Positions 4,697 through 31,067 are shown, counted from the first letter of the stretch. The stretch: DNA of 64,000 nt from Nitrospirota bacterium (GCA_021789595.1 JAJYJJ010000001.1:62001-126000), one strand, 5' to 3'. Translations and numbers: made by a program. Notes: generated from the letters alone by a model not told the origin.

Positions 4697-4710
4697 AGAA
4701 CAATAAGATA

Positions 4711-4799: not shown

Positions 4800-4807
4800 A
4801 AATTGGC

Positions 4808-9092: not shown

Positions 9093-10235
9093 CTATCTCA
9101 GAAAATCCTGCACCTGCTTTTTTATCTTGAGGTGATGTAGGGGGATATTCGGCACATCTTTATTCCCGGGGACGGCGAGGGCATGGATAAATCTTAGTCC
9201 CTTACACGGATTTTTCATGACATCAATTAACTGTTTCTTGCCTGCCACTTTAATTGTGTCTTTTATACCGAAACCCTTTGCCACAAGCTCAAGATCTACG
9301 CATGAGGCGGTAAGTGTAGGCTGGTCTCCTGTTGAGCCGTAGGAACCATTATCTATTGCAATAATTGTCAGATTCTCTGGCGCAAGATAGGCAGCAGTTG
9401 CAAGGCAACCAGGATTCATTAAAAGGCTGCCGTCGCCATCTATAACAATAACCTGCTTATTTGATGTAAGCGATATCCCGAGGCCGATCGGGGTTGCCAT
9501 ACCCATACTTCCGAGCATGTAAAAATTGGAAGGCTGATGTTTTATGTAAAAAAGCTCCTTTGATGGGAATCCAAGATTGCATACGACAACCTTTGAATCA
9601 AGATAAGGTGCAATAATATCCAGAATTTCATAACGGGTAAATCTCCGGGGAGATGCACGATGTATGATGCCAGATGCACGATCAGTTTTTATATCCAGCA
9701 TCCAGCATCCTGTATCCTGTATCACGACTTCTGAATCTTCCCATATTGCAGGACTGAGCAAGAACGCATGTATCTTGTTTTTCCTGTAAACATCGGGAAG
9801 TTTCGCCTCTATAACCTTAAAATCATCCTTTGTACTGATAATCGAACATGGTATGCCTGCTCCTCTAAGAACCCCTGGAAGCCTCTTGCCCATAGGCACC
9901 TGAGCTTCAATCCCTTCTTTATATACCCCCCTATGGCTTACAAAGACAGCAAGCGGCAATTTATAGAATCCAGTAAGGGACAGTAGGGCGTTTATCATAT
10001 TGCCAACACCTGAGCTCTGGACGAACATGGCAGGTCTTCTGCCCCCGAGTGCAGCACCGGCACATATGCCAACACCTTCCTCCTCTCTTGTTAAAGGGAT
10101 ATGATATAGGGGTCTATGGCCATATGCCCCTATAATTAATTCGAGGAGGTTTTTAATCTTCTCGCAGGGCAGAGAGCAGACAAAATCTATATCTCTTTTA
10201 AGAATCTCTATTAACTCTTCTTCAGGGTATGGCAC
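9093..10235 (-). CDS. comDE: Sulfopyruvate decarboxylase, fused alpha and beta chains (coenzyme M biosynthesis)
   Basis: A 380-residue thiamin-diphosphate enzyme joining a ComD-like half (about 1-170; TREEEGVGICAGAALGGRRP with the catalytic Glu, then QSSGVGNMINALLSL) to a ComE-like half (about 197-380; GSMGMATPIGLGISL, then VIVIDGDGSLLMNPG with the cofactor-binding GDG at 267-269 and AIDNGSYGSTGDQ). It converts sulfopyruvate to sulfoacetaldehyde on the way to coenzyme M. Methanosarcina-type ComDE has the same fused order. The linker (about 172-196) is encoded by repeat-like DNA (see findings). The start overlaps the end of the cysteate synthase gene by 25 bases. A phosphonopyruvate decarboxylase is the main alternative, but the partner gene argues for sulfopyruvate. 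Confidence 0.85.
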   Translation of the reverse strand: MPYPEEELIEILKRDIDFVCSLPCEKIKNLLELIIGAYGHRPLYHIPLTREEEGVGICAGAALGGRRPAMFVQSSGVGNMINALLSLTGFYKLPLAVFVSHRGVYKEGIEAQVPMGKRLPGVLRGAGIPCSIISTKDDFKVIEAKLPDVYRKNKIHAFLLSPAIWEDSEVVIQDTGCWMLDIKTDRASGIIHRASPRRFTRYEILDIIAPYLDSKVVVCNLGFPSKELFYIKHQPSNFYMLGSMGMATPIGLGISLTSNKQVIVIDGDGSLLMNPGCLATAAYLAPENLTIIAIDNGSYGSTGDQPTLTASCVDLELVAKGFGIKDTIKVAGKKQLIDVMKNPCKGLRFIHALAVPGNKDVPNIPLHHLKIKKQVQDFLR

Positions 10236-11467
10236 AGCAGAGTTTCTATCTCCTTCTCTGAAATATTTTTTGACACAACAATGGGTTTGACTTCATAAGT
10301 CATAACATCCATCTTCAGCCTCTCTTCGCCTCCTCCTGTGATGTTAAGCAATATGGTATCGTCCTTCTGAACTATTCCATCGTTAATACTATTTACAAGT
10401 GCAGCCACTGCAACACCAGCAGCAGGAACAATATCAATCCCTTCTGTCTCTTTGAACAGATCCATTGCAGAGTAGACATCTTCATTTCTGACACCGTACA
10501 TCCTGCCACCAGTATCTATGAGTGCATCATATACCCCACCCTTAACAGAATAGGCAGGATAACGGTTTGACAGGACACGCGTTGTTATTAATCCTATAAG
10601 TTCGGGCCTCAGATCTTCAAGGAAAAGTTCCCTGCTTCCCTTCTGCCATGCCTTGACCATCGGCGCAAAGGGTAGATTCTGAGCAAGGTGAAGGGCTGGC
10701 AATCTATCGCCAAATCTGCCGTCTTTCAAAAACCTCTCGGCCATCTCCCATACAGCTATTGCTCCTGTTCCACTGCCAACAGCCTGGAAATAGTGTTCGG
10801 GGAGTCTCCCCATCTTTGATACTGCTTCAAGCAATACAACGCCAAGTCCGTCTCTCTTGGCTATGTTTTTCACGCCGCCTTCAAATGGTATTTCAAGGGC
10901 TAATGATATTGTCCTTGCCACATCAATAGAATCTGAATAATCGCCGTCGGCTAATGCTATGGTAGGTATTATTGATGAGCCCTCAAGATACCACATATCT
11001 ATAAGACACATATGCGGCACTACAATGACAACCGGGAACCCTGATATAGAAGAGAGATGGGAGAATGCCCTAGCAGTATTTCCAGCAGAGGCCACAATCA
11101 GCCCATTCATGCGGTTTTCCATTGCATTCTGTAGCACAACTGCTGCCTCAAACTCCTTAAATGTGCATGTCTGAAGTGACGCTTCCATCTCTGGCCAGTA
11201 CCCATTAAATGCAATGTAAAGGTTTTCAAGGCCGAGGCGTTCAGAGATACCTCTGGATTTATAAACCACAGGGCCTGACTGATAAAATTTATGGGTATGA
11301 ACCGGCAGCCAGTTAAACCTCCAGACGCCTTCAGCCTTTGTCTCGGTAAAAAGTCTATCCTTATAGTCTGTTACAAGGAGCGCATCCTTGCAGTGGCCGC
11401 AGAAGGCACAGTGTACCTCCTTTAATTCCTTTCCACAGTTTCTGCATCTTATGCTGAAATGACTCAT
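10211..11467 (-). CDS. Cysteate synthase-like PLP enzyme (threonine synthase superfamily)
   Basis: This 418-residue PLP enzyme has an N-terminal zinc ribbon (Cys8, Cys11, Cys20, Cys23/26) and a fold II lyase core. The Schiff-base lysine is probably Lys104 in SLQTCTFKEFEAAV, where ordinary threonine synthases read SFKDRG. The phosphate loop is NITGGGEERLK near the C-terminus. Cysteate synthase of Methanosarcina (about 416 residues) makes L-cysteate from O-phosphoserine and sulfite, the first step of its coenzyme M route. The TFKExEA motif, length and overlap with the comDE gene favour cysteate synthase over threonine synthase. Sulfite supply may come from the TauE/DsrE region at 25-32 kb. Substrate assignment is by context and motif, not proven. 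Confidence 0.78.
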   Translation of the reverse strand: MSHFSIRCRNCGKELKEVHCAFCGHCKDALLVTDYKDRLFTETKAEGVWRFNWLPVHTHKFYQSGPVVYKSRGISERLGLENLYIAFNGYWPEMEASLQTCTFKEFEAAVVLQNAMENRMNGLIVASAGNTARAFSHLSSISGFPVVIVVPHMCLIDMWYLEGSSIIPTIALADGDYSDSIDVARTISLALEIPFEGGVKNIAKRDGLGVVLLEAVSKMGRLPEHYFQAVGSGTGAIAVWEMAERFLKDGRFGDRLPALHLAQNLPFAPMVKAWQKGSRELFLEDLRPELIGLITTRVLSNRYPAYSVKGGVYDALIDTGGRMYGVRNEDVYSAMDLFKETEGIDIVPAAGVAVAALVNSINDGIVQKDDTILLNITGGGEERLKMDVMTYEVKPIVVSKNISEKEIETLLCHTLKKS

Positions 11468-11476
11468 ATTACCTCC

Positions 11477-12682
11477 TCAAATCAGGCTTCCAACCAGCTC
11501 CATAATATCCACAATTCTTATCTGTTTATCATAGTCTACCATGGCCTCATTCACCTTCGAATAGCATGCAGGACAGCTTAGAATAAGCTTCTCTGCCTTC
11601 TTCTTTACAGCCTCGTCAATTGTTAATCTTCCCATAGCAATAGCATTTTCATGAAAGACCTTTCTTGCAGCGCCGCCTGCACCGCAGCACCGTGAGTTGA
11701 GGCCGTGTCTTTCAAACTCCAGTAGTTCAACGCCAGGTATACTTCTGAGGACGATCCTCGGCTCATCTATCACACCAACCCCCCTGCTTAGATAGCATGG
11801 GTCATGGTAGATAATCCTCTCCTTCAATTCTTTTTTAAACCTTAACCTGCCCTGCCTTATCGCGTCTGCAACAAACTGGGTGATGTGCCTTATCTTAAAG
11901 GGCAGTTGTTGCCCATAGAACAATGGCCAGTCCCTTGACATAATATTTACACAGCATGGGCATGAACACAAGAGTAACCTGACACCCCTTGCCCTGTATG
12001 CATTGACAAGCCTTTTGGTCAGGTCCTCAAGCATATCATGCTGGCCTGTGATGAACAGCGGAAATCCGCAGCATACCTCTTCTTCAGGGGGAAGCATTGT
12101 AAATGGCTCACCAATTGCATTAAGCACGAGCACATCACCCCTTACCATTGGCTGTGCCTCATACGCGCCTGTGCATCCAGCATAGTATGCAATATCTGAT
12201 CTTTCCGAAACCATTACGCCTTCAGGAAACCAGGGGCTATATCTCTGCTCAGGCGGTTTATCGTATATGTTCCCTGTCCTCTCTATTGCCTTTGGAAGGT
12301 TTGCCTGTGGACCAATCGGGGCAAGCCCCCTTCTTACCATCTCCTTCCTCAACATAGGCCAGAGCCTCTGTGTGAAGATGCCTACAGTGCAGTTCTGGCC
12401 ACATGCGCCGCATGTAGTGCATTCATAGACGGCCTTTGTAAAATCCTCAAGAAGTTTCTTGTCTATATCCCTCGGACCAAACAGCCTGGCCTTAAGCCCG
12501 TCGGTAGCCTTTATGAACTCCCTGAACATCCTTATCTTCTCCGGGGGTGAGATGGCAGGTCTGCCTGTCACATCCTGGACCGGACAATGCTTTAGGCATT
12601 CGCTGCATCGGGTGCATGAATCAAGCTCTATCAACTGAAGCTTTGAGAGGCAGCCTGTGAAGTCTTTTTCATCAGCCTTCAT
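11477..12682 (-). CDS. HdrD-like heterodisulfide reductase catalytic subunit
   Basis: A 401-residue iron-sulfur protein. Two [4Fe-4S] motifs come first, CTRCSECLKHCP (about 23-34) and CTTCGACGQNC (about 88-98). Two CCG domains follow: AGCTGAY, VCCGFPL and CSCPCC make the first; HDPCYLSRGVG, SRCCGAGGA and SCPACYSK the second. This is the HdrD/GlpC/DsrK architecture; in methanogens HdrD reduces the CoM-S-S-CoB disulfide using electrons from HdrE. The start overlaps the end of the membrane partner by 11 bases. With coenzyme M genes directly downstream, a thiol/disulfide substrate is plausible. DsrK-like or lactate-oxidase-type roles remain possible. Confidence 0.82.
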   Translation of the reverse strand: MKADEKDFTGCLSKLQLIELDSCTRCSECLKHCPVQDVTGRPAISPPEKIRMFREFIKATDGLKARLFGPRDIDKKLLEDFTKAVYECTTCGACGQNCTVGIFTQRLWPMLRKEMVRRGLAPIGPQANLPKAIERTGNIYDKPPEQRYSPWFPEGVMVSERSDIAYYAGCTGAYEAQPMVRGDVLVLNAIGEPFTMLPPEEEVCCGFPLFITGQHDMLEDLTKRLVNAYRARGVRLLLCSCPCCVNIMSRDWPLFYGQQLPFKIRHITQFVADAIRQGRLRFKKELKERIIYHDPCYLSRGVGVIDEPRIVLRSIPGVELLEFERHGLNSRCCGAGGAARKVFHENAIAMGRLTIDEAVKKKAEKLILSCPACYSKVNEAMVDYDKQIRIVDIMELVGSLI

Positions 12683-13487
12683 GTAATATGCCTCTAAGTT
12701 TTTCGTTATGTTTTATTGCCGCAGATGTTACTATCTGTGCAGAAAACATATGGAATTGCTTTGAGAAAGGTATATAGGCGATAAATGATAAGGCTGATGC
12801 TGCATGAGACAGCCAAACAAGCCGGTGTGCCAGGATATAAGATGAGGCGATTCCCCCAAAGACAGCCTCGAATACCCTTGCGAAAAGATACCCTACAGGA
12901 GACCAGTCCATTGATGGAGGACGAAAATATGCCAGCCTGAGCCCCTCTGTGCTGAAACCCGTAATGATTATGAGGAGCAAAAGGCAGAGTATGACAGCAT
13001 CGTCCATAGAGGAAACAATATTTTCTGATCTGAAAACATATCTCCTGCCAAGGTAAAAGATTATGCAGATTCCAAGGAGGGCTCCTGCGATGTCAAGTAT
13101 CATAGAATAAACAAGATAGGCCATGCCATTTAAAAAATTCAGACGGAGGTCATAGTCTAAAGACAATATGACTGTGCCCATAAAAAGGGTAAGGAAACTC
13201 CATATTGTAATTACGAGCACGACGCCCCTCACCCTGCTCTTTTCAAAGACCCTTTTTGCAAAAAAGCATTCCTTTGAAAAGAGACCTTTGAGGCTCATCC
13301 TGGCAAGCTCAATGCCCCTCATGCCATAGACGATGTCATCAGGATTATCCTTCCCCCTGAGCCACACCGAGAACTTCACCCAGATGCCTGAAATAAAAAG
13401 CCCGGATGCAAGGACAGCAGATGCATAAAATACTGTTCTAAAAACTCCTGGGATGTTCCAGAAGACCTCTCTGGTTACATGGGTCAT
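12672..13487 (-). CDS. HdrE/DsrM-like membrane cytochrome b subunit
   Basis: A 271-residue NarI-superfamily membrane protein with about five or six transmembrane segments. The C-terminal signature HRLVWLSHAASALSFIAY followed by PFSKQFHMF carries the histidines that ligate b-type hemes in HdrE, DsrM and NarI. It would pass electrons between the quinone pool and the HdrD-like protein on the cytoplasmic side. Coupling to hdrD (11-base overlap) matches the hdrED pair of Methanosarcina and the dsrMK pair of sulfate reducers. The N-terminal 80 residues contain a soluble loop before the cytochrome region. Confidence 0.8.
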   Translation of the reverse strand: MTHVTREVFWNIPGVFRTVFYASAVLASGLFISGIWVKFSVWLRGKDNPDDIVYGMRGIELARMSLKGLFSKECFFAKRVFEKSRVRGVVLVITIWSFLTLFMGTVILSLDYDLRLNFLNGMAYLVYSMILDIAGALLGICIIFYLGRRYVFRSENIVSSMDDAVILCLLLLIIITGFSTEGLRLAYFRPPSMDWSPVGYLFARVFEAVFGGIASSYILAHRLVWLSHAASALSFIAYIPFSKQFHMFSAQIVTSAAIKHNEKLRGILHEG

Positions 13488-13495
13488 TGATCCCC

Positions 13496-14434
13496 TTATG
13501 TCATCATAAAAGGACTCTTCATCTGTTCATTCCTCTGCGCCGATTTCACTGTATTTTCAAGGAGCATTGCTATAGTCACAGGGCCAACACCGCCAGGCAC
13601 AGGCGTGATGAAGGATGCCTTTTCCCCAACTGATTCAAAATCTACATCGCCCACAATACTTCCATCTTCAAGTATATTAATACCTATATCCACAACCACT
13701 GCACCCTCTTTGACCATATCTGCCTTTATCAGTCCCTTTACCCCTGTTGCCGAACACAGGATGTCTGCCTGGCGTGTAAAGAAACTCAGGTCGCGGGTCT
13801 CCCTGTGGCAGACAGTAACCGTTGCCTCTTTTGCAAGGAGCATCATAGAAAGAGGCTTGCCAACAGCAAGGCTCTTTCCAACAACTACGGCATTTTTGCC
13901 TTTTATTTCCACCCCGTAAAACTCAAGAAGCCTTATAACCCCATAGGGCGTGCATGGGAGAAAACTTGAAAGCCTTGGCATAAACCCTCTGTTGTTAAGA
14001 ACCTTGAGATTGTCATGGAATATCTGAAATGTGGATTCGTCGGCAGCAAGGCGTCCAATAGAGATAGAGCCGAGCCCATCTACATCCTTTTCAGGAGAAA
14101 TAGTATTTACAACCCTTCTTGCATTTATTCTTGGTGGCAGGGGAAAGAGGATCAAAAGACCGTGTATCCGCTCATCATGGTTAACAGAATATACAACATT
14201 AAGAATCTCATTGGCGGAGGCTGTTGCAGGCAATCTGTATTCATATGCGTTTATGGCGACCTTTTTGCATGATTTTAAGGTTGCCAGAAAATATTGTTTT
14301 GAAGCCAGATTATCGCCAACAAGCACTATGGCAAGACCGACATCGATACCAAACCTTTTTAAACCTTCAACATTCTTTCTGACCTCCGCCTTGATCTCAT
14401 CGGCAAGTCTTTTACCATCCATTATGGTAGCCAT
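13496..14434 (-). CDS. folD: FolD homologue lacking the cyclohydrolase Lys and Gln
   Basis: A 312-residue member of the methylene-tetrahydrofolate dehydrogenase/cyclohydrolase family. VGDNLASKQYF, PEKDVDGLG, PCTPYGVIRLLEF, VVGKSLAVGKPLSMMLL and PGGVGPVTIAML are all conserved. However, the catalytic lysine of the YxxxK motif is Thr52 (YFLAT), and the glutamine of the VQLPLP motif is Leu96 (LILFPLP). Those two residues are needed for the cyclohydrolase and for full activity in characterised FolD enzymes, while the NADP-binding half looks normal. It may be dehydrogenase-only or act on a modified pterin. It sits between the Hdr pair and the corrinoid activator, so it plausibly serves C1 flow from the MtrH-like protein. 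Confidence 0.88.
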   Translation of the reverse strand: MATIMDGKRLADEIKAEVRKNVEGLKRFGIDVGLAIVLVGDNLASKQYFLATLKSCKKVAINAYEYRLPATASANEILNVVYSVNHDERIHGLLILFPLPPRINARRVVNTISPEKDVDGLGSISIGRLAADESTFQIFHDNLKVLNNRGFMPRLSSFLPCTPYGVIRLLEFYGVEIKGKNAVVVGKSLAVGKPLSMMLLAKEATVTVCHRETRDLSFFTRQADILCSATGVKGLIKADMVKEGAVVVDIGINILEDGSIVGDVDFESVGEKASFITPVPGGVGPVTIAMLLENTVKSAQRNEQMKSPFMMT

Positions 14435-14466
14435 CGAATACCTCCAAGCTGTAACATGTCATCCCT

Positions 14467-14781
14467 TTATTTTGAGAATACTATACTAACATCTTTTGGA
14501 AGACACATGCCTGCCTCAACCTCAATGGCCTTTAGAATCCCTCCTGGCACAGGACAGGCAACATGTTTTAAATGTCTTGTTGCAGACCTGTACACAGGAT
14601 TGCTGAGATAGCCTGAGAATACAGCCATCATATCAAGGGTAGGGATATCTTCAAGCATTGCCTTTACCATCCTGCATTCTGTATCGAGTTCAACGGCAAA
14701 TGTCCGCTTCTCAAGTCTATTAACAGTAACTGTCACTGTATAACCGCATATGCCGGACTGAATGGTAACCTTCGTCATCAT
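14467..14781 (-). CDS. Small four-cysteine protein of a methyltransferase-cluster family
   Basis: A 104-residue soluble protein with four cysteines (in SGICGYTV, DTECRMV, HVACPVPGG and AGMCLPKD), no membrane segment and no signal. The arrangement resembles a small family (DUF6951, from memory) that recurs beside corrinoid methyltransferases and their activators; I have no function for it. It lies 19 bases downstream of the activator gene and 32 bases upstream of folD, clearly within the operon. The Cys pattern could hold a metal or an iron-sulfur cluster, perhaps to pass electrons to the corrinoid. Confidence 0.6.
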   Translation of the reverse strand: MMTKVTIQSGICGYTVTVTVNRLEKRTFAVELDTECRMVKAMLEDIPTLDMMAVFSGYLSNPVYRSATRHLKHVACPVPGGILKAIEVEAGMCLPKDVSIVFSK

Positions 14782-14800
14782 CCTTTGGCTGTCCCTCCTC

Positions 14801-16786
14801 CTATCCTGCCTGTCCTTTTATCTCTGCAGCGTATGCTGATTTTTCAAGAAGTTTCTTTAGATTCGGGAAAGGGTCTTTCATATGAGGTATGTGCATGGCC
14901 TGCACGAACTCCTTCTGAAAATTGGGTTCAACCGCTATCTCAACGAACTCCACCCACCTGGCCTTTTCTTCAGCCTCAAGCCTCTTATCCCTGTTAAGGA
15001 GTGCTATTCTTGCACCATCGCCTGCTGCATTGCCCACAGCATAAACATTGTCTATATCGCAGTCAGGGAACATCCCCAGGGTCATGGCAGATTCCTTATC
15101 AATATAACTGCCAAATGCACCTGCAAGTATTACCTTATCAAGTTTATTAATACCCATCTTTTGCATCATCAGTTTTGCGCCTGCATACAGTGCTCCCTTT
15201 GCAAGCTGTAAGGCCCTTACATCAGCCTGGTTTATTATTATGTCTGTGCCTATGGATGTCTCATCTGCCCATGCAAGCACATACTCAGGCCTTCCATCTG
15301 AATCCCGCCTTATCCTTGGTGTATTCAATTCCATATTGAACTTGCCTGTTTTATCAATTATACCTGCCTTGTACATCTCGGCAACCGCATCAATAATCCC
15401 TGAGCCGCAGATTCCCTTGGCATCTATCTTTTCGAGGTGGGTGTGCCAGTCTGCTTTTCCTATGACCTTGTATTCAGGCTCTCTGGTCTCAGGATTTATC
15501 CGTATCTTTTCTATGGCCCCTGGTGCTGCCCTCATCCCGAACTTTATCTGGGCGCCTTCAAAGGCAGGCCCTGTTGCACAGGATGTTGAACATACCCGTT
15601 CTTTATTGCCGAGCAGAAGTTCACCGTTTGTGCCTATGTCTATTATTAAAACCTTTTCCTCCTGATTATATGGTTCCTCTGCAATGAGCACGCCAACATT
15701 ATCAGCCCCAACAAATCCTGCCTCTATGGGAAGCACATGTATGTAAGATGCGGGATTTATCTTTATGCCCATATCCCTTGACTTTATATCCAGTGCGTGC
15801 TGGACTGCCGGTATAAATGGGGAGCGGCCGATGTATTCAGGGTTAAAGCCCAGAAAGATATGATGCATTGCAGTATTAAATACAATGGTCATATCAACTA
15901 TAGCCCCGCCGCCGTCTTTTTTGCCATTGACCCTGAGGTCATGTGTGATCTTGCTTATTATCTCATTCAGCCCTTCTATAATTGTCCTCTGCATCTTCTC
16001 AAGACCATCTGGATTCATCATGGCATATGTAATCCTGGACATCACATCCTCTCCGTAGGGCACCTGTGGGTTCATCATGGACTCCGTGTTAACCACCTTG
16101 CCTGTATTGAAGTCGCATAGATAACCAACAACGGTTGTGGTTCCCACATCTACAGCAAGCCCATAGGAGGACTCGATGAAACCGTGTTCTACCTTTATAA
16201 TCTCCCTATCCATCCATATAGAGGCTGTGAGTCTCCATTGTCCTTTTCTCAGGGCATCCTGCAGCTCCTTTAGCACAAGGTAATCGATGGACAGGTTTTT
16301 CAGGCCGTATTGGGCATCAAGAATATCCTTTACCCTTTCTACATCACCCCTGGTCAGATCGTGGAGTGTTGGCGGTTGCAGCTCTATGAAGTATTTTTTC
16401 ACCGCTGGCTCAAGCTTGATGGTCAGTTCCTTGGCTGCCTTTCTGACTATCTGTTTGCCTGCCCTTGATTTTTCAGGAACAAATATCTTTACATCTCCGT
16501 GAACCTCTGCTGTGCATGCAAGCCTCATGTGATGGCCGTCTTCGGGCTTTATGAATTTTCTTTCAACCTCTGTAAAGGCACTGAGATGTGACATCTTGGA
16601 GTCCATGGAATCCTTCTCAAAAAAGCCCTCCTCAACTCTGACCTTGCATTTCCCGCATGTGCCCTTACCACCGCATATGGACTCTATATCCACACCGAGA
16701 TGCCTTGCAGCATCAAGAAGGGTTGTGCCATCCACTACCTCTCCTCTCCTGCCAGATGGCTGGAAGATTACCCTCTGTTTTATCAT
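14801..16786 (-). CDS. RACo-type ATP-dependent corrinoid-protein activator
   Basis: A 661-residue protein with an N-terminal plant-type [2Fe-2S] domain (Cys38, Cys44, Cys47 in SICGGKGTCGKC and Cys91 in LACTAEV), a middle region, and a C-terminal ASKHA ATPase domain (VDVGTTTVVGYLCDF, IDIGTNGELLLG, GICGSGIIDAVAEMY, GAFGSYIDKESA). RACo and RamA-type proteins return inactive Co(II) corrinoid to Co(I) so that methyl transfer can restart. It is preceded by a good ribosome site and lies in line with the corrinoid protein gene. The domain order matches RACo, not the archaeal RamA. Confidence 0.88.
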   Translation of the reverse strand: MIKQRVIFQPSGRRGEVVDGTTLLDAARHLGVDIESICGGKGTCGKCKVRVEEGFFEKDSMDSKMSHLSAFTEVERKFIKPEDGHHMRLACTAEVHGDVKIFVPEKSRAGKQIVRKAAKELTIKLEPAVKKYFIELQPPTLHDLTRGDVERVKDILDAQYGLKNLSIDYLVLKELQDALRKGQWRLTASIWMDREIIKVEHGFIESSYGLAVDVGTTTVVGYLCDFNTGKVVNTESMMNPQVPYGEDVMSRITYAMMNPDGLEKMQRTIIEGLNEIISKITHDLRVNGKKDGGGAIVDMTIVFNTAMHHIFLGFNPEYIGRSPFIPAVQHALDIKSRDMGIKINPASYIHVLPIEAGFVGADNVGVLIAEEPYNQEEKVLIIDIGTNGELLLGNKERVCSTSCATGPAFEGAQIKFGMRAAPGAIEKIRINPETREPEYKVIGKADWHTHLEKIDAKGICGSGIIDAVAEMYKAGIIDKTGKFNMELNTPRIRRDSDGRPEYVLAWADETSIGTDIIINQADVRALQLAKGALYAGAKLMMQKMGINKLDKVILAGAFGSYIDKESAMTLGMFPDCDIDNVYAVGNAAGDGARIALLNRDKRLEAEEKARWVEFVEIAVEPNFQKEFVQAMHIPHMKDPFPNLKKLLEKSAYAAEIKGQAG

Positions 16787-16831
16787 CTAACCTCCTCTAA
16801 AATTAGGCTAATCCAGTTCGGAATCTGGGAA

Positions 16832-17509
16832 TTATGAGTTTCGAGATATTAATTGCTCCGAACTAAAAACTTCTGACTTAAAAATCTTTCGACCATAAGG
16901 GCATATATTTATACATAATCCGCAATTTGGTCTGCCGTTTACAGTCCTGCTATTTTTCTTGTAAGAGTTGCATCTATCAGGTCTGACAAGCTGGGTGAAT
17001 GGTTCATATCTCGACCAGTTTCTGCCAGTAAGTGCATTTGATGGACAGAACTCAACGCACATACTGCAGTCTCCGCATCGGCTGAATTCAATGGCTGTGC
17101 CAACCTGAAATGGTGCATCTGTTAACACTGTTGCAAGCGAGAGTCTCGGCCCATACCTATGGTTTATAAAAAGGCCATTCTTTCCGATCCAGCCAAGTCC
17201 TGCGGATGTAGCAGCTATTTTATGGGTAAAGAGGGGATAGAGTCTGGATATGAATGTGTTTTTCCACCTGTCCGAATCAGGCGGTATGCATAGATACCTG
17301 TACCCTCTCTGTTTAAGCCATCTTGCTGTCTTGCTCTCAAGCGAGGTCAATAGGTTTACAGTATCCTCATTCAGATTTCTGTTTACACATATGGCAATTG
17401 CCCTTCCAAGATGCGATATCTCTCCTTTAAGGGCATCCTTTACCTCAGCTATACCCACTAAGGTGGCCCCTGCATTGAGAAGTTCATCTCGAAGTGTTTC
17501 GACTTTCAA
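16832..17509 (-). CDS. Short QueG-like double [4Fe-4S] protein
   Basis: A 225-residue protein with an N-terminal domain resembling epoxyqueuosine reductase (LGWIGKNGLFINHRYGPRLS is the usual segment) and two ferredoxin motifs: CGDCSMCVEFCP, then CGLCINICPYG. True QueG is about 350 residues and ends in helical repeats, which are absent here. Its start overlaps the stop of the corrinoid protein gene by four bases, so they are coupled. QueG is a cobalamin reductase-like enzyme, so a role in reducing or loading the corrinoid is a fair inference. Queuosine synthesis seems unlikely from the context. Confidence 0.7.
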   Translation of the reverse strand: MKVETLRDELLNAGATLVGIAEVKDALKGEISHLGRAIAICVNRNLNEDTVNLLTSLESKTARWLKQRGYRYLCIPPDSDRWKNTFISRLYPLFTHKIAATSAGLGWIGKNGLFINHRYGPRLSLATVLTDAPFQVGTAIEFSRCGDCSMCVEFCPSNALTGRNWSRYEPFTQLVRPDRCNSYKKNSRTVNGRPNCGLCINICPYGRKIFKSEVFSSEQLISRNS

Positions 17510-18195
17510 CTTTTCCTTGCCTCTGCCTCTTCCTTGAGTTTTTTCAATGAGCTTATCATATTGATCGCATCCTTCAAGGCATTGTTTGCATCCTTGGCAT
17601 ATCCATCAGCACCCCATTTCTCAGCTATGTCTTGAGAAACAGGTGCACCGCCTATCATTATCTTTACATTAGGGTTTTTTGTCTTAAGCTCTTCTATTAC
17701 CTTCTTCATGCCGACCATTGTTGTTGTCATCATTGCAGAGAGGCATACAAGGTCAGAGTCTGTCTTCATCTGCTCTTCCACAAATTTATCAAGCGGCACA
17801 TCCCTGCCCAGGTCGTATACGGTAAAGCCAGCCACATCGAACATCATCTTCACAATGTTTTTGCCTATGTCATGAACATCGCCCTCAACCGTTCCTATGA
17901 CAACAGAACCTCTCACACCGAGATCCATCTTTTTCACATGGGGCTTGAGTATATCAAGGCCGGCATAGAGGGCATCTGCGCACATTAGTAATTCAGGGAC
18001 AAAGTACTCCTGAGCCTCGAACAGTCGACCAACCTCTTCCATGCCGCTCACAAGGCCATTAAATATGGCGTCGTTTGGATCCATCCCTATATCAAGGGCC
18101 TCTTTGGAGGCATCCTTTGCAGTATCCTCATCGTACTGTATTACTGCATTCTTTAGCCTTTCCAGTATCTCCTGTTTTTTTTCTCCCGTTACCAT
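17506..18195 (-). CDS. Corrinoid protein of a methyltransferase system (MtaC/MtbC-like)
   Basis: A 229-residue two-domain protein: an N-terminal four-helix cap (about 1-90) and a cobalamin-binding Rossmann domain with the motif EGDVHDIGKN, where His108 is the lower cobalt ligand, followed by DLGRDVP and later IMIGGAPV. It carries the methyl group on cobalt between two methyltransferases. It lies between the QueG-like gene and the MtaA-like gene in the order seen in methanol and methylamine systems. The methyl donor cannot be read from it. Confidence 0.92.
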   Translation of the reverse strand: MVTGEKKQEILERLKNAVIQYDEDTAKDASKEALDIGMDPNDAIFNGLVSGMEEVGRLFEAQEYFVPELLMCADALYAGLDILKPHVKKMDLGVRGSVVIGTVEGDVHDIGKNIVKMMFDVAGFTVYDLGRDVPLDKFVEEQMKTDSDLVCLSAMMTTTMVGMKKVIEELKTKNPNVKIMIGGAPVSQDIAEKWGADGYAKDANNALKDAINMISSLKKLKEEAEARKS

Positions 18196-18199
18196 AGAT

Positions 18200-19249
18200 C
18201 TACCTCCTGTATTTTTTTACTTCTTCCATCATTACATTTATGTTTTCTGGCGGCACAGTCGGCCAAATATCGCATCCAGGCCATACAGCACTGACACCAT
18301 CGTCTATACACTTTCTTATAGTCTCCCTGACCTTTTCAGTTGTACCTGCCACAAGGACATTGTATGGGTCGTAATTTCCAAATATCAGGGCATCCTTGCC
18401 GAGCCTCTTTCTTGTTTCGGCAACATCGTTCTTCTGGTCAACACTTATTGCCTTTACATTAGTCTCCATCATAAAAGAGACAATGTCGTTTGTCTTTCCA
18501 CATATATGGATTACGCTCGGCACAGTCAGCTTATCAAAGATCTTTTTAAGATAAGGCTGTATCAGATTCTTAAAGACCCGCGGGCTTAGAACATCCGAGG
18601 TTGCACCCATCTCCCTCACTGTTATATAATCTACCCCTGCTTTTTCATACTGTTTTGCCACTGTAACAATGGCATCAGCAAGTAGGTCGAGGAGCTTACC
18701 TACCTTGTCAGGTTTTTTAAAGGAAAGTTTCAAGAGGTCGTTGAGTTCCATTATCTGTCCTGCAAGGGTGAATGGGCCAAGGACATAGGAACCGATGGCG
18801 ACCTCACCGCCTATATCCCTTTTCATTAATCTGATCGCCTCGCATATAAGCGGTATCCTGCCCCTTTCTGATATGTTCACAGGAATAGAGATGTCCATCT
18901 CATCCTCGTTATGGATCAACTTCTTTTTTATTGTCGGATACAGTATGTCCTCTAAGTGGGCATAGACATTTATCTCACAGCCAAGTGCCTCTGCCTCTAC
19001 ACAGAGGTCAAAAGGGACAACTCCGCATTCAAAGCCGAACAGCTTGTATGTGGATGCTGCTGCCTCTGACATCATTTTTGCGTCAGAATGAAGGGCGGCG
19101 AATTTGTATCCATATTTCCTCAGTCCTTCTGTTGTAACATTCCCCATGCCGCTGAAGCATGGAGGTCTGTCAATAGCTTCACCTGCAAAGAGCTGCATTA
19201 CCCGTTGTTTTGCTGATAATGTTGTTGTCAACGCTTTCTCCTTGTGCAT
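18200..19249 (-). CDS. MtaA/MtbA-like zinc methyltransferase (UroD superfamily), copy 1
   Basis: A 349-residue UroD-fold protein. Zinc ligands are visible at His248 and Cys250 (VIHICGKTND) and Cys326 (WPGCDIWPTVPP), the same spacing as His237, Cys239 and Cys316 of MtaA. MtaA moves methyl from the corrinoid protein to coenzyme M; other members move methyl from substrates to cobalt. It lies four bases before the corrinoid protein gene. With coenzyme M genes in the same operon, a CoM methyltransferase is the leading reading, but a substrate:corrinoid role is not excluded. Ordinary uroporphyrinogen decarboxylase is excluded by the zinc motif. Confidence 0.82.
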   Translation of the reverse strand: MHKEKALTTTLSAKQRVMQLFAGEAIDRPPCFSGMGNVTTEGLRKYGYKFAALHSDAKMMSEAAASTYKLFGFECGVVPFDLCVEAEALGCEINVYAHLEDILYPTIKKKLIHNEDEMDISIPVNISERGRIPLICEAIRLMKRDIGGEVAIGSYVLGPFTLAGQIMELNDLLKLSFKKPDKVGKLLDLLADAIVTVAKQYEKAGVDYITVREMGATSDVLSPRVFKNLIQPYLKKIFDKLTVPSVIHICGKTNDIVSFMMETNVKAISVDQKNDVAETRKRLGKDALIFGNYDPYNVLVAGTTEKVRETIRKCIDDGVSAVWPGCDIWPTVPPENINVMMEEVKKYRR

Positions 19250-19264
19250 GTTTTCATTTCTGTA

Positions 19265-20212
19265 TTATTTCCTTGCTTCTCCAGCCATTAATTTCTCTAT
19301 AAAATCAGGGAAGAACCTTCTTATTGGAAGGTTGTCTTTCTCTGGTATATGTTTTGTCTCGCCGTATACAATCGTAGAAAGCAGTATATGTGCTGTGGCA
19401 ACGGCAGGGAATATACGCGGGGCAGTAACAATCGGTCCATAGAAGTTAAAATCACTCCAGAGCACAGAGGCCATGCCCTGGGCTACAGCATCCATTGCCT
19501 TAAAGCCGTCAGGCCCCCATAAATCTTTCGAGGCCTTCCACATATGAGTTCCGTTTGAATATGCACCACCGCATGGAAGCCCAAACTTATCCTTTATCAA
19601 CCTGTTGGCTATTAAGGAAAATGATGTAGCAGGCAGGTTCATTACAGAGGTATCTACAATAACGGTATCGAAGCTGTCTGCACCCTGCGATAGGATATTA
19701 TCGAGGGACTTTACTCGCCCCATTGGAGATTGGTCTTTATCATCAAAGGCCTGCACGACCACATGCTTTATCCCAAGGTCCTTCAGTCTATTTATCTGTC
19801 CTTTAATGTCCTTATCCCATGGCGTGATACTGTTATAGAGGAACTTGTCCTGGATCCCTAATTTAGCAATATGCTCAGTTGCCTGTGCCCTTTTCTCGGC
19901 AACCCACATATCTATGCCAAATGGCATGTTTGTTGTCTCAAGATAAAAATCTATATAAACCTCAGCCTCTTCAGGCGTATTTGCCACCATTGCCACCATT
20001 GCAGGTATGCCTGTAGAGTTTGAGAGCTCCTCCTGTTTGTTTATAAGTTCTTTTGCCTTTTGCCTGTCGAACCTGCCTTTTCTATCTTCAAGTATCCTGT
20101 CCTTGTTGTGAAACATAGAGGCTATAAGCAGGGGTGGATTGTCTCCAGGTTGACCGCCTATTTTGATTCCATTTATATCAAAGACCTTTTGTGCCCTTGT
20201 AAATCGGAACAT
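19265..20212 (-). CDS. MtrH-like methyl-pterin:corrinoid methyltransferase
   Basis: A 315-residue protein closely following MtrH: FRFTRAQKVFDINGIKIGGQ at the N-terminus, FDRQKAKELINKQEELSNST, then GIDMWVAEKR, FLYNSITPWD and a VDTSVMNLPATSF loop. MtrH is the subunit of the methanogen Mtr complex that transfers methyl between tetrahydromethanopterin and cobamide; bacterial relatives act on methyl-tetrahydrofolate. No other Mtr subunit is present, so it probably works as a soluble partner of the corrinoid protein encoded two genes away. Together they link the MtaA-like proteins to the folate pool and to the FolD homologue. Confidence 0.87.
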   Translation of the reverse strand: MFRFTRAQKVFDINGIKIGGQPGDNPPLLIASMFHNKDRILEDRKGRFDRQKAKELINKQEELSNSTGIPAMVAMVANTPEEAEVYIDFYLETTNMPFGIDMWVAEKRAQATEHIAKLGIQDKFLYNSITPWDKDIKGQINRLKDLGIKHVVVQAFDDKDQSPMGRVKSLDNILSQGADSFDTVIVDTSVMNLPATSFSLIANRLIKDKFGLPCGGAYSNGTHMWKASKDLWGPDGFKAMDAVAQGMASVLWSDFNFYGPIVTAPRIFPAVATAHILLSTIVYGETKHIPEKDNLPIRRFFPDFIEKLMAGEARK

Positions 20213-20283
20213 TCTCTCTCCTTAAATAAGCAAGGTAGTATTAAAGCAGGGGAGCGGCATAACCACTCCCCATTGTCTTTTGA

Positions 20284-20730
20284 CTAATAAACTCCGTGAT
20301 CAAACTTCGGCTGTGGCAGATATTCCCACGACTCGCCCTTTCGGTATTTGGCCTCTATGTCGAGGCATTTCAGTGCATACTCAAAGGCGTAAGGAATTCC
20401 TGGCCCGCCAGGAACAAAACCTGCGCCGATCATGCCGACTGCCGCCGCCTCAAATATCTCAGAAGTTGTAGCTCCTGCCTTAATAGCTGGAATCACATGA
20501 ATTATGCACCGCGGAGAACAGTATGAGACACCAATGGCTGTAAACATGAGCTCTTTTATCTTCTTTGAAAGTGCCCCGTCACCGAAAATGGTTGCGTAGA
20601 AATCTGCAAAGGTCTTTCCAGGATCTGGTGTTACAGTGTTTATTATCTTGAACATCCTTGGGACAAACCCCATAACATCTTCCATATACTTGTTGGCCTC
20701 TTCAGCCGTCATCTTCTTTTCCCCAGCCAT
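20284..20730 (-). CDS. Carboxymuconolactone decarboxylase-like (AhpD superfamily) protein
   Basis: A 148-residue CMD-fold protein. The usual CxxCxxxH active site is instead CSPRCIIH (Cys71, Cys75, His78), so one cysteine is shifted while Cys71 and His78 keep their spacing. AhpD-type members are thiol-disulfide enzymes. It stands between the MtrH-like gene and the second MtaA-like gene in the same orientation, so it belongs to the operon; a disulfide or peroxide role linked to coenzyme M thiol would be attractive but is speculation. A GGAGGG site precedes the ATG. Confidence 0.75.
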   Translation of the reverse strand: MAGEKKMTAEEANKYMEDVMGFVPRMFKIINTVTPDPGKTFADFYATIFGDGALSKKIKELMFTAIGVSYCSPRCIIHVIPAIKAGATTSEIFEAAAVGMIGAGFVPGGPGIPYAFEYALKCLDIEAKYRKGESWEYLPQPKFDHGVY

Positions 20731-20856
20731 CTTACCCTCCTTTTACCTGATGTAAACTCTCGGGTTAATAGTTTTTCATTTTCTCATAAATTCCCGTATT
20801 GACCTAAACCTCCCCCAAACTGCTGTAAACCGCCAATCCACTCTCACCTCCCCTCT

Positions 20857-21885
20857 TTAGAGTTTCCATTCCCTGGCAACCTGGATAAACTTCTGTATGT
20901 TCTCATAAGGCACTGTCGGTGGTATGTCACAGCCAGGCATGAGCACGAAGCCGCCGTCGGTGCCAGCGGTCTGGATCACTGATTTACAGGCATCCTCTAC
21001 TTCCTGAACTGTACCCTGAAGCATTATCTTCACAGGGTCAACATTCCCTGCAAAACACATCTTTCCATGTAGTATCTCTTTTGCCTTTGCGATATCGGTT
21101 TTATGGTCAAGACTTATACAGCTTGCACCTGTAAGAGGGAACAGATCCAGCCTGTCTGTTGTATTGCCGCAGATATGGACAAGGGTATGAACGCCCTTTG
21201 ACTTCGCCCAATCAGTAAACTTCTTAAGGTATGGCAGGGCAAATCTTTCGAACTGTTTTTTTGATATCAGATCGCCTGATGCAGTCGGGTCAGCAAGGCT
21301 TATAACCTCAAGGGTTCCATCAGCCACCAAAGGCTCATACAGATGGATCAATAGATCTGTGACAAGATTAACTATCTTCTCTACAAAAGCAGGTTTTTTA
21401 AAGGTAGCCTTCATCATTGCTTCCTCTCCAACCAGTCTTGCACCGAGGGTAAAAGGCCCCCACGCAGTCATTGTTACCACATACTCGTCACCGATCTTTG
21501 ATCTGGTAAGCCTGAGGGCATGTTTGACAGTATTGATAACCTCATCCCTGTCTATCCCTGATATGTCCAGTTTCTGCAGGTCTTCCTCTGCAGCAATCAA
21601 TGCTTCTTCAAGGTCAGGGGCGCCTATCTCCCTGAATTTGATCCTGCCTCCAAGTGCCGATGCATGAAAGTTGTTGTAGCCTGAACCGGCATACACAATA
21701 TCGCAGAGCAACCTGCCTGACATATGTGTAAGCATCTCAGACATCTTTAAGGCATCGAGGGATAGGTCCTTAAATGTGGTTCCGAAATTATGGATACTCC
21801 ACATCCCACCGCCAAAGATGGTCGCTGGCACCCTTTCTGGTTTACCGCCATCAAATGCTTTTAGGATTACCTCTCTTGGTTTCAT
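20857..21885 (-). CDS. MtaA-like zinc methyltransferase (UroD superfamily), copy 2
   Basis: A 342-residue UroD-fold protein with His237 and Cys239 (LVHICGNTTD) and Cys319 (LMPGCDIPPTVP), almost exactly the MtaA zinc numbering. It is a clear paralogue of the protein at 18200-19249 but not a recent duplicate; the two differ along most of their length. One of the pair may take methyl from a substrate and the other deliver it to coenzyme M, as in MtsA- or CmuA-type systems. It is the second gene of the transcript from the sigma-54 promoter at 22259-22274. Confidence 0.82.
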   Translation of the reverse strand: MKPREVILKAFDGGKPERVPATIFGGGMWSIHNFGTTFKDLSLDALKMSEMLTHMSGRLLCDIVYAGSGYNNFHASALGGRIKFREIGAPDLEEALIAAEEDLQKLDISGIDRDEVINTVKHALRLTRSKIGDEYVVTMTAWGPFTLGARLVGEEAMMKATFKKPAFVEKIVNLVTDLLIHLYEPLVADGTLEVISLADPTASGDLISKKQFERFALPYLKKFTDWAKSKGVHTLVHICGNTTDRLDLFPLTGASCISLDHKTDIAKAKEILHGKMCFAGNVDPVKIMLQGTVQEVEDACKSVIQTAGTDGGFVLMPGCDIPPTVPYENIQKFIQVAREWKL

Positions 21886-21896
21886 ATATATCTCCT

Positions 21897-22247
21897 TTAA
21901 GTTATAGATAATATGCCCAAATGATGGATATCGCGAACCACCTGTTTGAACTCTGCAAGGTCAACAGGCATCTTTATACCAAGGGCATCATTGGTATGTT
22001 TGGCACAGCCTAAGACTATTACACGCATATCAGGTGAAACACTTCTTATTATCTGTATTGCCTCTTCTACAGAAAGTCCAAAGGACTCTGAATCTATTAT
22101 TATTGCACTGTAGCTGCTCTTAAAAACCATCTGAACAGCGAGGGCAGGGTGGTCAGCGGTCTCAACGCTATAACCCTCATCTCTCAATATTCCATAGAGA
22201 CTCTTTACCAGGATTGGATTATGCGTGCATAAGATAATCTCGTTCAT
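21897..22247 (-). CDS. Degenerate response-regulator receiver domain
   Basis: A 116-residue stand-alone CheY-like domain. The phospho-acceptor Asp is present in SAIIIDSESFG, but the N-terminal acidic pair is replaced by CTHNP, so normal Mg-dependent phosphorylation is doubtful. It ends with a KMPVDLAEFKQVV helix. It is the first gene of the minus-strand methyl-transfer cluster. By sigma-54 promoter geometry its transcript would begin about one base before the ATG, so it may be translated leaderless. Its role may be to sense or scaffold; no output domain is attached. Confidence 0.65.
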   Translation of the reverse strand: MNEIILCTHNPILVKSLYGILRDEGYSVETADHPALAVQMVFKSSYSAIIIDSESFGLSVEEAIQIIRSVSPDMRVIVLGCAKHTNDALGIKMPVDLAEFKQVVRDIHHLGILSIT

Positions 22248-22258
22248 AAAAATTGTTT

Positions 22259-22274
22259 TGCAATTTTAGTGCCA
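22259..22274 (-). promoter_or_regulatory. Sigma-54 promoter of the methyl-transfer cluster
   Basis: On the minus strand the sequence reads TGGCAC, TAAAA, TTGCA, a full match to the -24/-12 consensus with correct spacing. The -12 C is at 22260, putting transcription start near 22248, one base before the ATG at 22247. It would drive the run of minus-strand genes from 22247 towards 9093. The sigma-54 activator encoded at 23292-25049 is the obvious candidate regulator. Confidence 0.85.
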
Positions 22275-22703: not shown

Positions 22704-23231
22704 ATGGCAAAGATTAATGGGCTTGACACTGAGAAATTAATGGCGGTGGTCGAAACTGTCAAACAGAACTGGGAGGTGGGAAAGACTGTATGGAAGGCAT
22801 CAACAACATGGAAGGGTGGTTTCAAGGTCGAGACCTGTTCAAGGGACTTTACCTTAACGGCAGATGAGCCTGAGATGTTGTGCGGAACAAACACTGCAGC
22901 CAACCCTGTCGAAATGGTTCTTCAGGCATATGGTGCATGTCTGACAATTGGCTATGCAATGAATGCTGCTGTAATGGGGATAAAGATTGATGACATCAAG
23001 ATAGACCTTGAGGGTGAAATAGACCTCCCTGGGTTCCTCGGACTTGAGCCGCCAGAAAAACTCCATATGGATAAGCTGCCTGGATATAAAAGCGTAAAAG
23101 CAGTGGTGAAGATCAAGGCTGATGCAGATGCCAAGACGCTTAAGAAGCTTCACGAACATGTAGTAAGAACATCTCCTGTAGGTCTAACACTGTCAAGGCC
23201 TGTAAGGGTCGAAACCAAGTTGGAGGTTTAG
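22704..23231 (+). CDS. OsmC-family protein with Ser in place of the resolving Cys
   Basis: A 175-residue OsmC/Ohr-fold protein. The peroxidatic position is Cys79 in AYGACLTIGY, but the second site, usually CPVSNTL, reads SPVGLTL (Ser157), so a normal two-Cys hydroperoxidase cycle is not possible. Its N-terminal 40 residues, containing DTEKLMAVVETVKQNWEVGK, are longer than in typical OsmC. It has its own sigma-54 promoter and faces the activator gene, so it is probably part of the same regulon. Role may be in sulfane or thiol transfer instead of peroxide removal; this is inference. Confidence 0.78.
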   Translation: MAKINGLDTEKLMAVVETVKQNWEVGKTVWKASTTWKGGFKVETCSRDFTLTADEPEMLCGTNTAANPVEMVLQAYGACLTIGYAMNAAVMGIKIDDIKIDLEGEIDLPGFLGLEPPEKLHMDKLPGYKSVKAVVKIKADADAKTLKKLHEHVVRTSPVGLTLSRPVRVETKLEV

Positions 23232-25494: not shown

Positions 25495-26694
25495 ATGAGA
25501 AAATTGGATGAATTGGATGAGTTTATCAGCGAGTATGAAAGGGGTAAGATGGATCGCAGGACATTTATTAAAAAGGCCATTTTGATGGGCCTGACCCTTT
25601 CGAGTATCAATGCCCTTTTGTCATCAAGCGGTAAGATGATTAAGGATGCCTTTGCCCAGACACCGCCTGCTGGCAAACCTGCGAATATCACTGTTGGATA
25701 TTTCCCAAGCTGGGTAGGAGGCTGGTCGGGTGTTGTTATTAGGCATAGAGAGTTGTGGAAAAAATATCTTCCAGCAGGTAGTAAGATAGACTGGGATGTC
25801 CAGATAGTTGGCCCCCCTATAGTTGCCAATCTCATGGCCAATAAGAGCCAAATAGGGTATATGGGAGATATGCCTGCCCTTGTGGCAACCACGAAAAGGA
25901 ATATTGCTGACCTTAGGATTGTAGAAACAAACCTTTTCTCTGATACGGGCCAGATATGTTCATGTATGCTGGTTCGGAGCGATGCCCCACAATTTAGGAA
26001 TATAGAGGAAGCTCTAAGATGGCTTGATGGTAAGAAGATTGGCGTTTCAGGAAAAGGCTCATGCGGTGACCGATTTGTTTCAAGTCTCATAAGGAAAACA
26101 GGCATCAAAGCTGATGTTCAGTATCTCGATCCTACTATAATAATGACATCCCTCCAGGCAAGAAAGATAGATGCTGCACAGAGCTTCCAGCCCCATGTGG
26201 CCCAGATCATGGATCAGGGATTCGGCAGGCTCGTCTTTACCGGTTCAAGATGGGGCGCGCAGGATGCAGACTTTATCCTAATGAGAAAAGACTTTATCGA
26301 CAAATATCCTGAGGCTGCAAAAGGGTGGATAAAGGCCGATATCGAGGCCCTACAATTTATGTTGAAAAATCCTTATGAAACAGTAAAAATGGTGGCACAG
26401 GAATTGCCCGGTTATACCACCAAGGACCTCTGGATGGCCGTGTATGGACGTTACCCTGGGAATACAGGTTCCATGGAGACGAATGTAATTGCACAGGTGG
26501 GCTTTGATAAGAATGTCATGGAATTTATAGATGAGAGCTTCAAATTCCTCCATTCAAAGGGTGCTATCACTATCGATAAACCACTGCCTGGTGCCATCTA
26601 TACAGACTTAGTGAATACAGCTATAAAAGAGATGAAGGTTAAGATACCATTGGGTAAGTTTGAAGGTTTGCCTCTTACAGAATTCAAGGGATAA
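25495..26694 (+). CDS. Tat-exported substrate-binding protein, SsuA/TauA/NrtA family
   Basis: A 399-residue ABC binding protein. A short cytoplasmic lead is followed by a twin-arginine signal (DRRTFIKKAILMGLTL, about 20-35), so it is exported folded. The mature part begins NITVGYFPSWVGGWSG and shows KIGVSGKGSCGDRF and DAAQSFQPHVAQIMDQGFGR, as in NMT1/SsuA-type proteins that bind sulfonates, nitrate or thiamin precursors. A GGAGG precedes ATG 25495. It is the only binding protein in an operon with two permease-ATPase pairs. Substrate is unknown; TauE and DsrE neighbours suggest a sulfur compound. Confidence 0.85.
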   Translation: MRKLDELDEFISEYERGKMDRRTFIKKAILMGLTLSSINALLSSSGKMIKDAFAQTPPAGKPANITVGYFPSWVGGWSGVVIRHRELWKKYLPAGSKIDWDVQIVGPPIVANLMANKSQIGYMGDMPALVATTKRNIADLRIVETNLFSDTGQICSCMLVRSDAPQFRNIEEALRWLDGKKIGVSGKGSCGDRFVSSLIRKTGIKADVQYLDPTIIMTSLQARKIDAAQSFQPHVAQIMDQGFGRLVFTGSRWGAQDADFILMRKDFIDKYPEAAKGWIKADIEALQFMLKNPYETVKMVAQELPGYTTKDLWMAVYGRYPGNTGSMETNVIAQVGFDKNVMEFIDESFKFLHSKGAITIDKPLPGAIYTDLVNTAIKEMKVKIPLGKFEGLPLTEFKG

Positions 26695-26713
26695 TATGAG
26701 AGAAGGAGGGAAA

Positions 26714-27208: not shown

Positions 27209-27240
27209 AAATGCAAAAATCCCCCATAAGGAGGAGATTG

Positions 27241-27654: not shown

Positions 27655-27666
27655 GATAACCGTGCA

Positions 27667-29349: not shown

Positions 29350-29388
29350 GAGTATGCAACTTAAAACAAATACAAGAGTTGATAGCTG

Positions 29389-30162: not shown

Positions 30163-30176
30163 AAGGAGACGATTTC

Positions 30177-31064: not shown

Positions 31065-31067
31065 TTT

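Follow-up and report, generated by a model that had tools for sequence, protein, structure and literature searches.

Can a bacterium make coenzyme M (CoM), which is known above all from methanogenic archaea, and use it to carry methyl groups when it has no methyl-CoM reductase? The question is raised by an operon in a 64,000-nucleotide stretch of DNA from a Nitrospirota bacterium (GCA_021789595.1, JAJYJJ010000001.1:62001-126000; referred to herein as the window), which is part of a 214-kb contig in a 2.23-Mb genome (36 contigs, 99% complete). Fourteen genes follow one another on the minus strand from position 22247 to position 9093, the gaps between them ranging from -25 to +126 bp. In the 5'-to-3' direction, they encode a receiver-like protein, MtaA2, an AhpD-like protein, MtrH, MtaA1, a corrinoid protein, a QueG-like protein, a RACo-type activator, DUF6951, FolD, a cytochrome-b anchor, an HdrD-like protein, cysteate synthase, and ComDE. 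A first-pass annotation had read the locus, at the level of its modules, as a bacterial pathway in which methyl is exchanged between a substrate, CoM, and tetrahydrofolate without methyl-CoM reductase, and conservation, family cut-offs, and active-site residues support that reading. All genes it named were recovered on the minus strand by profile matches (families were assigned with Pfam and NCBIfam; Table 1), but its list had left out the AhpD/carboxymuconolactone-decarboxylase-like and receiver-like genes. Our best reading is that methyl groups move between a sulfur or selenium methyl compound, CoM, and tetrahydrofolate.

Conservation and distribution of the operon

If relatives had not conserved the gene set, the first-pass reading would have been refuted by its own criterion; the set turned out to be kept. 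The ten core genes are colinear on one strand in 26 of 40 stretches from relatives; in the other 14, the contig edge is reached, the cluster is split, or members are missing. In a sample of 296 Nitrospirota genomes from 135 genera, cysteate synthase was found in 43 genomes (27 genera), MtrH in the identical 43 genomes and one further (44/296), and DUF6951 in 42 of the 43 and two others (44/296). The co-occurrence of cysteate synthase and MtrH has a Fisher P value of 4e-51, with kinship ignored, and co-occurrence of the operon genes persists where they sit on separate contigs. Since the order is kept in 26 of 40 stretches and cysteate synthase and MtrH co-occur with a single exception, the operon is not a product of chance. 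Gain or loss concerns the whole set: in one genus (g3), cysteate synthase and MtrH occur jointly in one genome and are both absent from two others.

A scan of named genomes yielded 72 loci, almost all of them in metagenome-assembled genomes (MAGs) that bear the label Nitrospirota or Thermodesulfovibrionia, with groundwater, sediment, subsurface, and hydrothermal habitats represented. They include three chromosome-level assemblies and the Nitrospiraceae assembly Ngb-4. Among the relatives with a colinear operon are the circular chromosomes CP070669, CP070737, and CP070788. For one locus (L127), the label of the MAG reads Thermoleophilia bacterium Kmv30; the operon occurs outside the phylum in this case unless the MAG is a Nitrospirota genome with a wrong label.

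Not all members are equally constant. Pairwise protein distances of the corrinoid protein, MtaA1, and MtrH correlate with one another (r = 0.83-0.88), so that these three form a methyl-transfer core that evolves as a unit; distances of the AhpD-like protein show a weak correlation with theirs. The AhpD-like gene lies within the cluster in 26 of the 40 sampled loci, and a receiver-like gene occupies the equivalent place in 15 of 40 relatives. FolD, which the first-pass annotation had counted as part of the set, is present in the window but is an optional member, found in the operon of 4 of the 40 sampled relatives and of further named genomes.

Predicted methyl-transfer enzymes and their active sites

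MtaA1 exceeds two curated cut-offs of the methylcobalamin:CoM methyltransferase type (NF004889 and TIGR01463), aligns with the MtaA structure 4ay7 (8e-47), and lies under the cut-off of the MtaA_Meth equivalog (247 versus 400). MtaA2 is 28% identical to it. The zinc ligands of both proteins (H248/C250/C326 in MtaA1 and H237/C239/C319 in MtaA2) align with those of MtaA 4ay7 and are at least 95% conserved in 52 and 43 homologues, respectively. In methyltransferases of the UroD superfamily, a His-Cys-Cys zinc site marks S-methyltransferases, and carboxylate ligands mark O-methyltransferases (PMC10418091); because both sites are kept, we read both MtaA-like proteins as being of the S-methyltransferase type. 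Judging from its sequence family, the substrate of MtaA1 would be CoM. In many relatives, although not in the window, a gene for a COG0523/CobW GTPase adjoins mtaA2 (for example, L024:12535-13407, L038:16098-17000, and L045:3615-4484); COG0523 GTPases adjoin corrinoid methyltransferases in other systems as well (PMC2770081).

Residues D101 and N220 of MtrH are conserved in 51 homologues and correspond to the positions that carry mutations in 6sjo and 6sjp, structures of MtgA, which works with tetrahydrofolate. When assayed, the related MtrH-like enzyme MtoA accepted tetrahydrofolate (H4folate) but did not use CoM (PMC8630106). The DxHxxG motif of the corrinoid protein (GDVHDIG) is conserved in 52 homologues. 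The 8 Fe-S cysteines of the QueG-like protein and residues C75, H78, and C122 of the AhpD-like protein are conserved too. No Mtr membrane subunits (MtrA-G) were seen in the operon of the window, a genome-wide search for them not having been run.

The absence of methyl-CoM reductase claimed in the first-pass annotation was borne out beyond the window, the alpha subunit (PF02249) being found in 0 of 20 genomes, and methanogenesis or reverse methanogenesis through this enzyme was rejected as an explanation. A methylamine or betaine substrate handled by an MttB-type enzyme was likewise rejected (MttB family proteins in 0 of 20 genomes). Carbon monoxide dehydrogenase/acetyl-CoA synthase (CODH/ACS) of the Wood-Ljungdahl pathway is encoded in 17 of 20 genomes.

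Putative coenzyme M synthesis and its last step

The CoM synthesis genes proposed earlier were found, in the form of cysteate synthase and ComDE, but the set is incomplete in that the known last enzyme is absent. Cysteate synthase aligns with the solved structure 9k3c over residues 4-396 with 325 bits. The alpha part of ComDE is over its cut-off and the beta part 1.5 bits under; a phosphonopyruvate decarboxylase in its place was considered and rejected, as that model fails (191 < 312). There are no close plasmid-borne copies, the nearest being cysteate-synthase-like genes with 38% identity on Streptomyces plasmids (NZ_CP108366.1:651299-652480 and NZ_CP109493.1:806538-807698), where no CoM is expected.

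For the last step, the ComF/MMP16 or HcyBio domain (PF01837) was found in 0 of 20 genomes, and TIGR03287 gave ferredoxin-domain matches only; a ComF encoded elsewhere in the genome was also considered and not found. Because of this, CoM is not proven to be the end product, and we regard two other proteins, DUF6951 and a protein of the TauA/SsuA/Thi5 fold, as candidates that might catalyze the conversion of sulfoacetaldehyde to CoM. An uncatalyzed reaction is an alternative route, since sulfoacetaldehyde and sulfide can yield CoM without an enzyme (PMC12068725). In Methanosarcina acetivorans, ssuA/ssuC, cs, comDE, and hdrABC are induced under CoM starvation (PMC12068725).

DUF6951 is the small protein for which four cysteines had been noted; it is present, but just three (C12, C36, and C76) are conserved, together with H73. 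Its structural model has a predicted local distance difference test (pLDDT) score of 94, and nearly all of its best Foldseek matches in the PDB are IscU, SufU, SufE, or CsdE, at weak scores (E of about 0.07; template modeling [TM] scores of 0.5 to 0.58). The four conserved positions recall the IscU site. No sequence relatives were found in the PDB or in PHROGs, and the family also occurs in M. acetivorans.

The TauA-fold protein has about 311 amino acids and no signal peptide, is cytosolic, and has the invariant residues H13, C74, H79, H121, C257, H300, and H305. It is encoded in 43 of the 296 genomes, 41 of which are among the 43 with cysteate synthase. Its gene lies on a different contig in the genome of the window (C29; L154:618-1571), and in many relatives it adjoins comDE or the methyltransferase end of the operon (another copy is L039:18148-19083). 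Often it diverges from genes whose products, a sigma-54 regulator and a histidine kinase with GAF/PAS domains, might form a sulfonate-sensing two-component system, and the TauA-fold protein could itself be either a C2 sulfonate sensor or an enzyme. Such kinases with a sigma-54 regulator were seen at L158:10653-13148, L155:6276-8222, and L162:11119-13584.

The disulfide reductase

The "HdrDE-like" pair of the first-pass annotation held up for HdrD. Across 67 homologues, conservation is 95% or higher for its motifs C170-x33-CC-x35-CxxC and C296-x35-CC-x36-CxxC and for eight ferredoxin cysteines, and we take this cysteine pattern, by analogy with HdrB/HdrD, to be that of two non-cubane clusters. 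In most relatives, a DsrM-like cytochrome b of about 230 amino acids replaces the HdrE-like anchor. At loci L054, L059, and L061, the operon includes a further HdrD/HdrE-like pair that is divergent, with an identity of about 23-30%.

Regulation and surroundings of the operon

A sigma-54 promoter, TGGCACTAAAATTGCA, lies without mismatches upstream of the first gene, and among 23 relatives whose sequence extends far enough upstream, 12 have a strict form of the motif in the corresponding position. The next upstream gene, on the same strand as the operon, encodes a PAS-type sigma-54 activator. On the opposite strand lies a region of sulfonate-type ATP-binding cassette (ABC) transporter genes, possibly for sulfonate uptake, in which permease and ATPase genes are duplicated. 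Together, sigma-54 control and the adjoining sulfonate transport genes fit a role that is inducible and probably catabolic. In some relatives, taurine/sulfonate-type ABC genes were also seen in or beside the operon, at L079:1282-3803, L102:7319-9899, L110, and L111. Farther away, the window contains a gene for Cas1 and, in a CRISPR-like array, the repeat CTTTTAATCGCACCAATATGGAATTGAAAC (positions 3704-6989).

Table 1. Features of the operon and its surroundings in the window (scores in bits, compared with the family cut-off where two values are given)
Feature	Position	Strand	Evidence
ComDE, fused sulfopyruvate decarboxylase (alpha+beta)	9093..10235	-	TIGR03845 184 > 148; TIGR03846 220 vs 221.5
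Cysteate synthase	10211..11467	-	TIGR03844 equivalog 479 > 325; solved structure 9k3c
HdrD/TfrB-like disulfide reductase	11477..12682	-	two CCG domains and two ferredoxin motifs
HdrE-like cytochrome-b membrane anchor	12672..13487	-	NarI family 25.1 > 22.9; weak TmcC/QmoC
FolD, methylene-tetrahydrofolate dehydrogenase/cyclohydrolase, optional member	13496..14434	-	Pfam 218 and 109
DUF6951, predicted IscU/SufE-like sulfur carrier or scaffold	14467..14781	-	PF22263 102.6 > 27
RACo-type corrinoid reductive activator	14801..16786	-	RACo_C_ter 337, middle 179, linker 84, Fer2 45
Short QueG/reductive-dehalogenase-like 2x[4Fe-4S] protein	16832..17509	-	partial QueG, reductive dehalogenase matches below cut-off
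Corrinoid protein (MtaC/MtbC type)	17506..18195	-	TIGR02370 218.8 > 215.3
MtaA1, probable methylcobamide:CoM methyltransferase	18200..19249	-	NF004889 277 > 244; TIGR01463 257 > 235
MtrH-like corrinoid:tetrahydrofolate methyltransferase	19265..20212	-	NF002142 346 > 287
AhpD/carboxymuconolactone-decarboxylase-like protein	20284..20730	-	PF02627 28 > 23; 5dik AhpD 3e-6
MtaA2, second zinc methyltransferase	20857..21885	-	URO-D 199
Receiver-like small protein, first gene of the operon	21897..22247	-	Response_reg 26.5, below 30.2 cut-off
Sigma-54 (-24/-12) promoter TGGCACTAAAATTGCA	22259..22274	-	0 mismatches
OsmC-like protein, divergent neighbor	22704..23231	+	PF02566 71.5 > 27.5
PAS-domain sigma-54 activator (PrdR-like), likely regulator	23292..25049	-	Sigma54_activat 236, PAS
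Sulfonate/taurine-type ABC transporter, two DsrE, TauE/SafE exporter	25495..31802	+	SsuA/NMT1, DsrE x2, permeases, ATPases, TauE

Proposed working and alternatives

We propose that a group of subsurface Nitrospirota of the sulfur cycle makes its own CoM for an inducible corrinoid methyl-transfer operon under sigma-54 control. Cysteate synthase and ComDE would convert phosphoserine and sulfite to sulfoacetaldehyde, into which the thiol would be inserted without ComF, perhaps by DUF6951 as a sulfur carrier together with the TauA-fold protein. The corrinoid protein would act as the hub, with RACo reactivating it and the QueG-like ferredoxin supplying electrons, so that it stays in the reduced Co(I) state. 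Entry would probably be through MtaA2, where methyl from an S-methyl (or Se-methyl) compound would pass to Co(I) of the corrinoid protein; MtaA1 would exchange methyl between the corrinoid protein and CoM, and MtrH would pass it to tetrahydrofolate. The C1 unit might then be oxidized (through FolD, in some operons) or enter CODH/ACS, and the HdrD/cytochrome-b pair would link the CoM thiol/disulfide couple to menaquinone. What the sequences show directly is homology, active-site residues, conservation, and co-occurrence, from which the CoM product, the substrate, the direction, and the Hdr reaction are inferred.

Several points weigh against this scheme. In addition to the missing ComF/MMP16 or HcyBio domain, MtaA2 misses the CoM-methyltransferase cut-offs (167 < 235 and 164 < 244), although its zinc site is kept, and the presumed HdrE is not a specific match, its similarity being only that of a generic cytochrome-b anchor of the NarI/TmcC type. 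The weakest point is that MtrH could take the corrinoid methyl straight to folate, which leaves the need for CoM unexplained. We therefore hold the full scheme at a probability of about 0.55 and consider two rivals, salvage and reverse flux, to be live.

The strongest of these, which we think possible but rather unlikely, is salvage of methyl-sulfur or methyl-selenium compounds, in which MtaA2 and MtaA1 would demethylate S- or Se-methyl compounds to recover sulfide or selenide, with CoM or another thiol as the methyl sink, and growth would not be the purpose. It would suit the His-Cys-Cys type of both zinc sites and the AhpD-, OsmC-, and CobW-like neighbors, which resemble (seleno)protein families, and perhaps also the finding of a tRNA-Sec that passes its cut-off in 19 of 20 genomes. 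Salvage was proposed by Kountz and Balskus for the type 1 mlp gene clusters (PMC10418091), which share with the operon several His-Cys-Cys MtaA-like proteins, one corrinoid protein, one activator, and an occurrence in anaerobes that are not methanogens. However, those clusters have no H4folate methyltransferase and no conserved synteny, and neither CoM synthesis nor Hdr is reported among their parts (PMC10418091), whereas the operon has MtrH, CoM synthesis, Hdr, DUF6951, and AhpD-like genes in a fixed order, with MtrH and cysteate synthase together in 43 genomes. The presence of FolD in some operons also suggests a flux of carbon rather than salvage.

Flux in the reverse direction is unlikely. 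Methyl-tetrahydrofolate derived from CO2 would then pass via MtrH, the corrinoid protein, and MtaA1 to CoM, with methyl-CoM being used by a further enzyme and Hdr reducing the CoM disulfide. Transfer from methyl-pterin to CoM is exergonic (PMC10998594). CODH/ACS is present, and the two non-cubane motifs of HdrD imply the existence of a CoM disulfide, but there is no methyl-CoM reductase and no candidate for a methyl-CoM-consuming enzyme in the operon. Menaquinol, moreover, is a poor donor for CoM disulfide by its potential.

Equally doubtful is a product other than CoM, such as a C2 sulfonate derived from taurine, isethionate, or sulfoacetaldehyde, with MtaA1 methylating another thiol. In its favor are the missing last enzyme (no ComF/HcyBio in 20 genomes) and the Streptomyces plasmid genes, which are cysteate-synthase-like in a setting where CoM is not expected; against this, cysteate synthase is inherited jointly with HdrD and a CoM-subfamily MtaA, and CoM can form unaided from sulfoacetaldehyde and sulfide (PMC12068725).

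A bolder version of the CoM reading, an energy metabolism centered on methyl-CoM without methyl-CoM reductase, seems to us quite improbable. DUF6951 and the TauA-fold protein would be a new CoM synthase, methyl-CoM would be coupled to the CoM disulfide, and quinone-linked HdrD would recycle it; bacteria would in this way have an equivalent of methanogenesis, run forward or in reverse. A chance neighborhood, archaeal contamination, or misassembly can be dismissed, for although the best-known relatives of several genes are in methanogens, the operon lies within long contigs (here, of 214 kb) and on circular bacterial chromosomes, in 28 genera and in a kept gene order.

Comparison with known systems and implications

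To return to the preferred reading of methyl exchange with CoM and tetrahydrofolate, the operon would, by analogy, work like the CoM methyl-transfer (SCMT) modules of methanogens joined to a folate branch of the MtgA/MtoA type and would not amount to methanogenesis. With methylotrophic methanogens (Methanosarcina MtaABC/MtbA and HdrDE) it shares an MtaC-type corrinoid protein, an MtaA-type zinc enzyme, the cysteate synthase and ComDE route, HdrD with two CCG motifs, a COG0523 GTPase nearby, and DUF6951 (M. acetivorans). It differs from them in its bacterial host, in having no methyl-CoM reductase, no MMP16, and no MttB-type substrate enzyme found, in using RACo instead of RamA, and in its soluble MtrH with folate genes. 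The MtgABC system of Desulfitobacterium and the MtoABCD system of Methermicoccus (PMC8630106) have in common with it an MtrH-like enzyme for transfer of corrinoid methyl to tetrahydropterin and an activator protein. Unlike in those systems, no MttB- or MtoB-type demethylase was seen in the operon, and a CoM enzyme and CoM synthesis are added. Xanthobacter, with its epoxide carboxylation, is likewise a bacterium that makes CoM; we know of no methyl transfer in that system. Its CoM is made by a different, phosphoenolpyruvate-based bacterial route (PMC12068725).

In the open literature that we searched by titles and abstracts, a scope that leaves subscription journals largely outside, no description of this operon was found, and bacterial CoM is known there only from alkene and epoxide metabolism, via a different route. 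If our reading is true, CoM would serve bacteria as a C1 carrier linked to folate, across dozens of Nitrospirota genomes whose organisms are common inhabitants of groundwater and sediments. For the formation of CoM by a new step, DUF6951 and the TauA-fold protein would stand as two concrete candidates. The finding would bear on which underground organisms consume methylated sulfur compounds, and CoM genes in metagenomes would then not by themselves be signs of methanogens.

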